In this document: piece by piece, positions 35,881 through 64,000 of the stretch
Layout of the letters: every line of letters begins with the position of its first letter
Position numbering within the stretch: position 1 is the first letter of the stretch
Source of the DNA: Planctomycetota bacterium
Lineage (GTDB): Bacteria > Planctomycetota > UBA11346
Assembly: GCA_022841245.1 (NCBI GenBank)
Contig: JALHRW010000001.1
Coordinates: 33,869 to 97,868 of the forward strand
Direction of reading: 5' to 3'
DNA length: 64,000 bases
Notes under the pieces: generated by a model
What the model saw: only the letters and a program-made list of their open reading frames with translations
Told to the model about the DNA's origin: nothing
Database searches by the model: none
Made by a program: the position numbers and the translations under genes

Positions 35881-35971
35881 TGAGACTAAATCGCAATGGC
35901 TTTTGTGATTCACCAAAGAGTTAGCGCGAGGCGATGGTAGATGATCCAATATCACCCAAGGAGTCTGATCA

Positions 35972-36481
35972 ATGAACCTAATGTCTATTTTTCTATTCAT
36001 TATTTTTTCTGCAGGTGGCCTCTTTTCTGAGGAACATCCAAGCAAGCTATCCGTCACGCTTGTTGAAACATTCATTGGAGGCAACGCAGAGGCGCTTCAA
36101 AATATTGCGAAAGTACATTACTATAAGCCAGCAAAGGCCGAGGAATTCGCCGCCAATATGGCACGTGGACTGATGGACATCCCACCGCAATCACGACTTT
36201 TGTTGGGGGCTTCCATGGGGAAGTATAAATATGTAGGATGCGTTGTTGACGGAGGAGCATATAGAAGGGATTTTTATATCGTATACCATGAATTCGCGCC
36301 GCTTTCGATGATGGTGATGACGTATTTCAATGGAGTGGAATACCGTCTGTGTGACGTGGCTATTGGCGATGCGGCAGGGAAGTTCATTACGGATAATTTT
36401 GTTTCGGTGATTGATGCCGCCGGTCGTAGGGACAAAGCGGTTCAATCTGGCAAAGATGTTCGTGCTCGTGCGGAGCCGTAG
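35972..36481 (+). CDS. secreted hypothetical protein, AT-rich gene
   Basis: MNLMSIFLFIIFSAGGLFSEEHPSKLSVTLVETFIGGNAEALQNIAK...; signal peptide; base composition clearly lower GC than neighbours. Confidence 0.65.
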   Translation: MNLMSIFLFIIFSAGGLFSEEHPSKLSVTLVETFIGGNAEALQNIAKVHYYKPAKAEEFAANMARGLMDIPPQSRLLLGASMGKYKYVGCVVDGGAYRRDFYIVYHEFAPLSMMVMTYFNGVEYRLCDVAIGDAAGKFITDNFVSVIDAAGRRDKAVQSGKDVRARAEP

Positions 36482-60431: not shown

Positions 60432-62707
60432 TCATCCCGACTTTCTCCGCGCATGGAGCGAGGAGAGCCGGAGCCGGGGTTTCGCGAGACGGGGACCCTG
60501 GTCACTGGTTCCGGGCAGCGCTACCCCGACCAGTGACGCCGCCACCGCGCAGCCAACGACGCCGTCGAGCCAGTGGTTGTCGAAACCAGTCGGCCGCAGC
60601 TTCCATTCATCAACCTCGCGGCCACGGCCGCTGGTGCGGACCCGGTACTCAGCGGTGAGGTGCTCGGATAGCAGGCGGTGCCGTTCGGGATCATGGCCAT
60701 ACAGCGACAGGCATCCGGGATCGCCCATCGGCACGGCCAGGCGCGCCTGTACGAAGGACTTCCAGTGGTTGGTATCGTGGAGCAGGTGGCGGACGGTGCG
60801 GCGTCCGACGACGGTCGGGATACGCCAGTGATGGCCGACCCGGTCACCGCGCTTGCGCTGATACTCCTGAAACGGCAGCGAAGCGGCGCCGACGAAGCGG
60901 CCGTGGCTGGGCATCACGATCGCGTTGTGCGGTGACTGGCGGCAGAACTGGTACACGACGTCCGTGCTCTGCCCCCAGTTGGCGTCGATGAGCAAACGAT
61001 CGATGGCCATGGTGGCGCCATCATCGCGCTGCCAATTCCGCCCAGCAGATCACCAACGCAGTGCTCCAGCCCAGCATAGATCGCGCCTTCGACCCCGGCG
61101 TCCTTGGTCGCTGCTGCGAGGGTGATGCGCAGATCCCGCAGGGTGAAGTAGGGGCGCCGCTGATCCGGCCAGGTGCCGTAGTCGAGGACGTAACCGGTGA
61201 AGTCATCCTCCCAGGCGCAGACCACCCAGAACAGCGCCTTCTGCTGCACGTCGATGAACGCCGTGATGTGCTGCGCCTGACCGGGCACCTCGGCACGGCC
61301 CAAGCCGTTGAGCTTGGCCGCGATCTGCTCGGCCGTGAGCTCTTCGCCGGTGTCAGCGGTCTCGGGCAGCGGCTCGTTCTGGTACTCGGCGAAGAACGCG
61401 GCTTCGTCTTGCAGCCGCAGGTTCATGGCGTGCTGAATCGCCGACAGCTCATCGTGGTTGTGGCGCGCCGGCCACGCGACCACCGCGTCCGCGTCCATGC
61501 GCTCGCGGTTGGCCAGGTAGTAGGCGGTCGCATCGGCGAGACCGCGGCCAGCGCGCAGGCCGTCAGCGCGGTGCTTGGCGTAGATATCCCACAGCTTCGT
61601 GGCGGTGGGGAAGGCGTAGACCATCTTGGTCCGTTCGCCATTCCACTCCGGGTGCGTGTCTCGATCGAGAATCCGGTCGGCCATGTCGCCGGGCCGGATC
61701 ACGGTGCACGGCATGACGCCGGCAATCTTCTTCCCCGGTCCGGCCAAGCCGAGGACGGCGCCGGCGAGGATGGCCTCACGGTGCTGGCACTGGCTCAGGC
61801 TACGTGCGCTCTCGTCGGTCTGCGGATCATCGAGCACGACCAGGCTCGGGCGTGCGGCCCGGCCGTCAGACCGCTTGAACTTCATGCCGCGAATCCGCCC
61901 GGTGATGCCGGCAACCTTGACGATGGCACCAGAGGCTGGCGAGCCGGGGATCGTTGGCAGGACGATTTCCTTAGCCGTCCAACCGATGTGCGTTCGTTCG
62001 CCGCGGTACAACTGGCCGCCAGCGCGGTGCGGAATGCCCTCCAGGGCGTGGATGGGGAAGACGGCCTCGGGGAAGTCTGCCAGGAGCAGATCGTTGGTTT
62101 CCAGTTCAGTCTTGAGCGACTCGAGCATATCAGCTGCGTGGGCTTCATCGGAACCGATGAGCACGACGAAGTCACGGTGGCCATAGAGCGCCGCCCACAG
62201 GCACCCGATCTCGCAGAGCGACGATTTTCCAAAACCGCGCGGTGTCGCCATCGCGAACAGGCCGCCATGCAGCACGGCCTCCTCGATCTTGGCGATCACC
62301 CGCAGGTGATCATCCGACCAGGGGAGGCAAAACACGCTGGCGAAGTACGCCTCGCAGAAGTTGCGCAGATGACGTTCGCCAGCACCCCGCCGCTCGGGGT
62401 TCACCACCGTTGGCAGGTTGCCGATGTCGCGGCCGGCATCTGACATCTCTCGTTTGCGGTTGGCAGCGGCGGCCCGATGGGCGAGGTAGTCACGCTCCGG
62501 ATCTGCAACGGCTACTGGTGTGGCGAGGCGTTCCGCTACCCAGGCCAGGTAGCGGAAGAGATCGACCGTCCCCCCATCGCCGATCCGTAGCCCGGCCCTG
62601 GCGCGATGTCGACGCAAGCGCAGGTCGTGCAGGGCGACACCCTGCGCGGAGGAGTTGAGCAACCGGACCAGATCGCTGGGCCGCAGATGGCGGAGGTCAC
62701 GCATCAC
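60432..62707 (-). pseudogene. phage terminase (DNA-binding N-terminus plus large subunit), interrupted by an apparent 1-nt deletion
   Basis: ORF 60914..62707 has Walker-A-like 'ATPRGFGKSS' and 'LVVLDDPQTDESARS'; ORF 60432..61010 continues 'IDRLLIDANWGQSTDVVYQFCRQS'. Inserting one G at 61041-61043 joins them as DLLGRNWQRDDGATMAIDRLLIDANWGQ. Confidence 0.82.
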
Positions 62708-62918
62708 GGTGCCCCTCGCGGCGCGCCAGTTCCTGCAGCATCCAGGCGCCGTAGGCGATGAGGTTGATCGTGCCGTCAGGGTTGGCGGGTGCTCCAGCCG
62801 CTATATCGGCCTTGACGCGCTGGGCGTCCATGTGCCGGGCCCCAGCCCGATGCAGGACTGCGGCAGTCTGATCGAGGCTCAGGCGCGTCAGCCCACTGGC
62901 GCCGGGGTCAGCGCTCAT
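62697..62918 (-). CDS. phage hypothetical protein
   Basis: Start MSADPGASGLTRLSLDQTAAVLHRAGARHMDAQRVKADIAAG; overlaps terminase start. Confidence 0.6.
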   Translation of the reverse strand: MSADPGASGLTRLSLDQTAAVLHRAGARHMDAQRVKADIAAGAPANPDGTINLIAYGAWMLQELARREGHRDA

Positions 62919-63062
62919 GGCGACACGCGAGGGAACACTGTGCCCAAACTGTCTTACCCCATGCGACTGTTCCCTTGGGCCTTGGCATGCACGGATCGGC
63001 GGGAAGGAACCAAGTTCCCGGTCCATCGATACACTCCGGTAATACCACCGCAGGCGACACCA

Positions 63063-63311
63063 GGTGGGTATGGGTGGGTAAGGTGGGTAAGTGGGCGGTA
63101 AGTAGGAGATGTAAATATATATCATTATTATACTTACTTACTTTCCCACCTTTCCCACCTTTCCGCCCACCCTCTCGCCCGCACCACCACACCCCCGCGA
63201 GCGCGTGCGCGACCCCTGGGCGGAAAGGTGGGTAAGGTGGGTAAGGGTCTGCGCCCTGTGATGACATGGAGTTACGCATGGACTTACCCACCCTGCGGGG
63301 ACTTACCCACC
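63063..63311. repeat. four alternating-orientation clusters of GGTGGGTAA / GGTGGGAAA iteron-like repeats around an AT-rich core
   Basis: (+) 63063-63101, (-) 63132-63171, (+) 63218-63245, (-) 63282-63311; AT-rich core about 63110-63140. Confidence 0.85.
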
Positions 63312-64000
63312 AGGGCGGTAAGTCGGTAGATGGTGCGCGGGCGTCCGCCGCTGTCCTCGAGGTCAGCGACGATCTGCCCGGTCTGGATGAGGTTGGCGAT
63401 CACCTCGTCACGCTCCCGAGCGGGCAGGGCGCGGAGCGCTTTGGAGAACTGCTCCTGGCGGAGCCGCCCGCCCGCCTCCTGGATGGCGCGCAGGGCCCGC
63501 TTCTGGCGCGCGTCGAACTCGCTCTCGTAGACGTGAATGGCGGCCATGGCGAGCATGCGCCGGGTCTGGTGGGCGACGAGTTGCCACGCCCAGGCGACCC
63601 CCGGCTCGGTGATCTCGGGCCGCTCCTGCCGTTGACTGCAGGCGTAGATGAGGGCGAGCCGGCGGACCTTCTCGGCGCCACGCGCCCAGAGAGCCATGCC
63701 CATTTGGTCGCCGTCAGCCTCGCGCTCGGCGTAGTGGCGGTCGGCCTCGGCCCGGATCTGGCGCAGGAGGTCGGCGGCAGCTGGTGTAGCCGGCACGATC
63801 ACCGGCGACGGATGTACGAGGCCCAGGTTCGCCCCGGCGACCGGCGCGAAGGCGGCCCAGGCGCGCGCGATGACCAGGATCGGCTCCGGTACGTCCTGCG
63901 TGGTCGCTTCCTGCCCGGTGCCGCGCCGTCCCGCCTCCAGCACCAGCATGCGAGCGAAGAAGCCGTTGGAGAGCATCTTGGACGACAGTGATTCGTAGAA
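63284..64000 (-). CDS. DUF3987/YfjI-type (primase-helicase-like) protein C-terminal part, partial at right edge
   Basis: Frame open to 64000: FYESLSSKMLSNGFFARMLVLEAGRR...GMALWARGAEKVRRLALIYACSQ...ITEPGVAWAWQLVAHQTRRMLAM. Confidence 0.8.
   Translation of the reverse strand, partial: FYESLSSKMLSNGFFARMLVLEAGRRGTGQEATTQDVPEPILVIARAWAAFAPVAGANLGLVHPSPVIVPATPAAADLLRQIRAEADRHYAEREADGDQMGMALWARGAEKVRRLALIYACSQRQERPEITEPGVAWAWQLVAHQTRRMLAMAAIHVYESEFDARQKRALRAIQEAGGRLRQEQFSKALRALPARERDEVIANLIQTGQIVADLEDSGGRPRTIYRLTALVGKSPQGG

Follow-up and report, generated by a model that had tools for sequence, protein, structure and literature searches.

The window, that is, the whole 64,000-nucleotide stretch of DNA analysed here, carries an element with its own terminase, portal, capsid, tape-measure and tail genes; a search for tRNA genes, a possible hint of an attachment site, found none in it. 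The window ends within a primase-helicase gene, whose 5' part is missing because contig C1 stops at base 64000. Due to this truncation, the catalytic domains are seen in relatives only: full-length homologs match Prim-Pol (PF09250) and DUF3987 only, some of them with PriCT_1. The stop codon of this gene leads into an array of short repeats (iterons), and the next reading frame on the same strand (62697-62918, minus strand) encodes a 73-residue protein with no Pfam or PHROG match. Judged from its sequence, this product resembles a Nu1-type terminase small subunit in minimal form; similar ORFs in genomes G011, G046a and G360 share with it the pattern AGAP(A/T/V)N(P/A)DGT(I/L)NL. It is followed by the gene of the terminase large subunit (60432-62707, minus strand), which is in two frames, split near 61010, its GpA_nuclease domain being divided between ORFs 60914-62707 and 60432-61010. 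The prophage copy may therefore be decaying, or the split may be an assembly error. The features of the array and of the primase gene are collected in Table 1.

Table 1. Features of the primase-helicase gene and of the iteron array behind it (window coordinates).
Feature	Position	Strand	Basis
Primase-helicase gene, 3' part, 238 codons	63284-64000	-	DNA primase matches phrog_3022 and phrog_10514
Predicted C-terminal winged helix, proposed iteron reader (residues 161-227 of the fragment)	63320-63520	-	AlphaFold2; co-variation
Iteron cluster I, copy 1 (inside the primase gene)	63303-63311	-	motif search
Iteron cluster I, copy 2 (supplies the TAA stop of the primase gene)	63284-63292	-	ORF list and motif search
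Iteron cluster II, two head-to-tail copies pointing opposite to the gene	63227-63244	+	motif search
GC-rich 47-nt spacer, potential hairpin	63170-63216		inverted repeat; single-strand DNA fold
Iteron cluster III, two copies (GGTGGGAAA)	63142-63159	-	motif search
AT-rich core, proposed DNA unwinding element	63112-63142		nearest-neighbour energy
Iteron cluster IV, GGTGGGTAT and two GGTGGGTAA	63063-63090	+	string check and motif search
Iteron words of the window locus and of the G033 pair C91/C108: GGTGGGTAAG, TTGACGGATT, GACAATAAG			

Nine 9-mers of the GGTGGGWAA type are spread over positions 63063-63311, grouped in four clusters whose orientation alternates. GGTGGGWAA itself is found eight times in the 64-kb window, always inside 63073-63311, as compared to 0.40 copies expected, and none of 100 shuffles reached eight; the ninth iteron is GGTGGGTAT, at 63063-63071. 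No exact copy of the 9-mer lies outside the array in the window, and no copy of the double repeat (up to one mismatch) lies beyond it in the 5.7-Mb genome to which the window belongs. Searched by DNA similarity against known phages, the array yields chance matches only. Every repeat string listed in the preliminary description was found where it had been placed, and cluster I does overlap the 3' coding end of the primase gene as announced there, one iteron lying within the gene and the other providing its stop codon. The same description had pointed to a strikingly AT-rich stretch in GC-rich DNA; nearest-neighbour energies bear this out, since the AT-rich core, located between clusters III and IV, has the lowest stability of any 30-bp segment in the whole window, and the same spot comes first at 40 and 60 bp. 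The second least stable stretch of the window, 35968-36295, is an AT-rich small-gene region with a composition unlike its surroundings. The two middle clusters, II and III, belong to a single 29-nt inverted repeat, 93% complementary, with arms at 63141-63169 and 63217-63245. Around the GC-rich spacer, this repeat has a computed single-strand DNA folding energy of -40.7 kcal/mol (z -6.9).

The relatives comprise genomes from the phylum of the window, together with two named phages of rhizobia and a phage-plasmid of a gammaproteobacterium. Of the first 150 related genomes, 14 encode homologs of the primase C-terminus; a profile search that covered 394 genomes of the phylum yielded 40. Arrays were sought with a detector that presupposes no sequence, demanding at least five copies of some 9-mer and a count exceeding all 15 shuffles of the locus. 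By this measure, an array is present at the same place behind the primase gene in 40 of 59 homologous genomic loci. With at least six copies, 32 of 70 targets are positive versus 43 of the 1478 control windows taken from these loci (p 1e-26 in a Fisher test that treats loci as independent), and the density of iterons in the arrays is ~81 times that in the flanking DNA. In about one third of the homologs, mostly distant ones together with several other phages, the detector shows no array. Two named phages carry arrays, Sinorhizobium phage AP-16-3 and Rhizobium phage RHph_TM3_3_14B, and Sphingomonas phage Eidolon is borderline; the detector finds none in eight others with more distant primases, and none is obvious by eye behind the primase genes of phages NV1.1.1, Ssp-JY40 and CRP-902.

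In the window and in most array-bearing relatives, the array starts at the primase stop codon. The iteron words differ by lineage and include GGCAATAAG, ACGGTAAGT, AATCCGTCA, CCTATTGAC, GACAATAAG and GGGTGAAAC, as well as GTGAAAGAA, GTGAAGGAA, GAGAAAACC, ACGATTATT, GGACAGAAT, CGAATTATT and others. Across lineages with such unrelated iterons, the cluster offsets from the stop codon remain similar (about -40 to +25, +35 to +70, +125 to +150 and +190 to +240) and the orientation usually alternates. An AT-rich core between inward-facing iterons is seen in 28 of 41 loci, a rough figure because for some iteron classes the orientation taken as canonical was picked by eye; for iterons ending in AAG or AGG, whose orientation is clear, the count is 16 of 18 loci. 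In many loci, a GC-rich stretch of alternating CG/CA/TG lies between outward-facing iterons. Read from the gene, the GC segment precedes the AT core in the window, G009 and G013 and follows it in most other loci, so that, with respect to the gene, the core seems to be turned round. No second iteron cluster was found in the relatives' loci or in the genome of the window, an absence that is not absolute since the window contig is truncated. The preliminary description had envisaged homologous loci that keep the gene and lack the repeat clusters, or an array occurring genome-wide away from replication genes. The relatives present instead repeat clusters with other repeat sequences; the array is not seen apart from the gene in its own genome, and the relatives' iterons form no cluster elsewhere in their loci. 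The search for GGTGGG(T/A)AA beside DUF3987 genes that it recommended would miss these clusters: looking in relatives for the window's own repeat is misleading because they use other sequences.

A further case is plasmid pC of Spartinivicinus ruber (NZ_CP048881.1; L137/L138), a circular record with a terminase, a LexA-family regulator and two sets of tail/capsid genes. As it has terminase, capsid and tail genes, pC looks like a phage-plasmid, and by its gene content it appears to be a previously unrecognised one. Of the 16 ATGTGANAN sites in its 82 kb, 10 are gathered in ~250 bp past the primase/polymerase gene, with an AT-rich core among them. This primase/polymerase is the only one annotated on pC, in a gene table that is incomplete, so that other replication genes are possible. 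The GC skew of pC shows no turn at the array and is uninformative. The circular record gives indirect support to a putative autonomous replication with initiator and origin.

The part of the primase that might read the iterons is its C-terminus. AlphaFold2 modelling of the window fragment predicts a winged-helix block there with a pLDDT of about 89-95, in line with weak profile and fold matches of the C-terminus to winged-helix proteins; a fold search of the PDB returned generic winged-helix matches only, none below E 0.001. The co-variation of protein and repeats was followed in 33 loci, leaving out near-duplicates and the detector match G375c, a CG-rich artefact. The distance between iterons correlates at r 0.53 with that between winged helices, and far less, at r 0.17, with that between helicases. 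In partial Mantel tests, the winged helix retains an r of 0.51 (permutation p 0.0005), versus -0.06 for the helicase (p 0.77). A ten-column sliding window gives values of about zero along the helicase, a peak of 0.57 near residues 179-189 and ~0.28 at the extreme C-terminus. Linkage to the neighbouring DNA alone would predict a steady rise towards the C-terminus, whereas the correlation drops there. The strongest co-variation falls in helix 2 (residues 179-190) rather than in the canonical recognition helix 3. For pairs with less than 40% winged-helix identity, a weak signal (r 0.14-0.17, p 0.01-0.03) is left in the wing and in helices 2 and 3, and none in the helicase.

Individual pairs illustrate the same behaviour. 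The two loci of G033 encode helicase parts that are 90% identical and winged helices that are 30% identical, and their iterons are unrelated; the window and G013 follow the same pattern, with 85% identity in the helicase and 48% in the winged helix. Conversely, G116b and G392a have a GTGAAAGAAG-type iteron in common despite 27% helicase identity. Iteron divergence thus tracks the C-terminal winged helix and not the helicase part. This co-variation supports a probable recognition of the iterons by the adjacent primase, and with it the earlier suggestion of a putative origin or regulatory site read by the neighbouring DUF3987 protein.

Taken together, the array is very probably an iteron origin from which the prophage replicates, and the winged helix of the prophage's own Prim-Pol/DUF3987 primase-helicase is the domain most likely to bind it. 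The basis is computational, comprising the anatomy of the array, its repeated association with the primase gene in different lineages, the winged helix predicted by modelling and the iteron/winged-helix co-variation; from these we infer the steps of binding, melting, helicase loading and priming. The origin would act in cis with the adjoining primase gene. The C-terminal winged helix would bind the 9-bp iterons, starting at the gene's own stop codon, and oligomers would form on the inward-facing iterons across the AT-rich core, causing its melting. Between clusters II and III, a hairpin of the GC-rich inverted repeat may assist. The DUF3987 domain would then be loaded as a helicase and the Prim-Pol domain would prime.

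The gene located after the array varies: it is the Nu1-like ORF in the window and G011, a ParB-methylase gene in many loci, a SpoVG-like gene in G033a and G326a and an integrase gene in G392a, and the array stays with the primase throughout. In the window, the small Nu1-like ORF and then a gpA-type TerL come next, and cos sites are often found just ahead of such genes; the repeats could then belong to a cos/pac region and be bound by the terminase small subunit. Such a packaging role is improbable, as the array is tied to the primase whichever gene follows, the terminase-side genes may be distant (the Nu1-like ORF ~4 kb beyond the array in G046a and G360, the terminase genes ~8 kb from it on pC), the iterons co-vary with the primase, and a separate conserved element downstream fits a cos site better. 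A cos/pac identity of the iterons was rejected, the site not being tied to terminase genes. The downstream element is composite (62943-63011, minus strand): GGTTCCTTCCCGGC (or GGTACTTCC), ~20 nt, GGGAACAG, ~20 nt, CAGTTTG(T) and TGTCCG. Its sequence is conserved in the window and in ~20 related loci, ~200-700 nt past the primase stop, irrespective of which iterons or which following gene the locus has, and it is a candidate cos site or late promoter.

It is quite improbable that the repeats serve mainly as an operator through which the primase or another regulator would control transcription of the primase gene or of the late operon. The array has the replication gene on one side and the late genes on the other, as such a function would have it; yet no match to a sigma-70-like promoter or an intrinsic terminator is found in 62600-63700, and inward-facing iterons around an AT core are a typical feature of origins. 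Being at the 3' end of the gene, with no second iteron cluster in the loci, the array is therefore not at the primase promoter. The iteron sites may nevertheless have a secondary regulatory role as well. A cluster of DnaA boxes, with the host DnaA as initiator, is very unlikely. The DnaA box is TTATCCACA, and the window iteron TTACCCACC is two positions off it; however, the iterons of relatives at the same positions (GGCAATAAG, AATCCGTCA, GGGTGAAAC, GAGAAAACC) are unrelated to TTATCCACA, despite the conservation of DnaA specificity between hosts, and iterons co-vary with the primase instead. A DnaA-dependent origin was thus rejected, the relatives' repeats not being DnaA boxes. Finally, chance or a functionless relic of neutral tandem duplication, for which the interrupted TerL frame could be invoked as a sign of a decaying copy if it is not an assembly error, is hardly credible in view of the shuffle tests, the similar layout despite unrelated iterons and the co-variation with the protein.

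The best reading of this iteron origin is a layout like that of SaPI/PICI origins, but paired with another helicase and carried by tailed prophages. In SaPI/PICI rep and SCCmec cch2, the iterons lie directly 3' of the gene and are read by the C-terminal domain of its product (PMC6092414, PMC7581432), a reading assigned to SaPI Rep and Cch2 themselves (PMC7581432). Here too, the predicted origin is immediately 3' of the initiator gene and iteron sets flank an AT-rich, putative melting site. The initiator, however, is of the Prim-Pol and DUF3987 type instead of the DUF927 or D5/Primase_Cterm type. The present element encodes a terminase, portal, capsid and tail of its own, in contrast to the SaPI/PICI satellites, which depend on a helper phage, and the array differs by its four clusters, its extra GC-rich inverted repeat and its iterons reaching into the coding end. 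The SaPI/PICI origin is the closest match in working principle, and membership fails on the helicase family and the element type.

Phage P4 alpha, invoked in the preliminary description, is a multidomain primase-helicase whose C-terminal winged helix binds origin repeats (summarised in PMC4234260). The analogy holds for the principle, a primase-helicase with a (here predicted) C-terminal winged helix and repeats at the origin, and fails for the primase, which is of the bacterial (Toprim) type in P4 and a Prim-Pol (AEP) with DUF3987 here. P4 uses two separated sites, ori and crr, unlike the single array found here. ORF904 of the archaeal plasmid pRN1 combines a Prim-Pol, a helicase and a C-terminal winged helix, its origin being directly downstream of the gene (PMC4234260). 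It shares with the present system the set of domains and the 3' position of the origin, but its helicase belongs to superfamily 3 and its origin is a 100-nt stem-loop devoid of iterons, as opposed to the iterons, plus a possible strong hairpin, observed here. The PrimPol-PV1 (PrimQH, All3500) primases are described, in the available part of their account, as AEP primases fused to DUF3987, a predicted helicase, and their C-terminal winged helices were proposed as possible readers of origins (PMC5862659). The full-length homologs of the window protein have such a fusion, and the window fragment has, by prediction, such a C-terminal fold; that available part describes no origin or iteron, whereas an iteron array is present here. 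A literature search found no paper on iterons for the Prim-Pol/DUF3987 family, weak evidence with subscription journals mostly outside it.

The origins of many temperate phages are not known, and DUF3987 is still labelled "unknown function" in Pfam despite its helicase prediction. The Prim-Pol/DUF3987 family now gains a concrete, predicted DNA target, together with a simple position rule: check the stop codon. A layout once called exclusive to phage satellites is also extended to tailed prophages and a phage-plasmid. The loci provide natural pairs for studying a protein-DNA specificity code, and for constructing mutually compatible replicons for laboratory strains. We lean slightly towards a wider view, in which prophages of several bacterial lineages would share one modular origin family: winged helix and iteron would form an exchangeable specificity cassette, swapped together under a near-identical helicase, with many mutually different words and an AT/GC core working in either orientation to the gene. 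If true, these would constitute a natural orthogonal set of origins, ensuring separate replication control for co-resident prophages.

The chromosome of G354 harbours seven primase loci of the Prim-Pol/DUF3987 family (L094, L096, L100 and L102-L105). At least five of them display related GAAAACC-type arrays and one a GAAGATTCA-type array, a natural set for cross-recognition between co-resident prophages.
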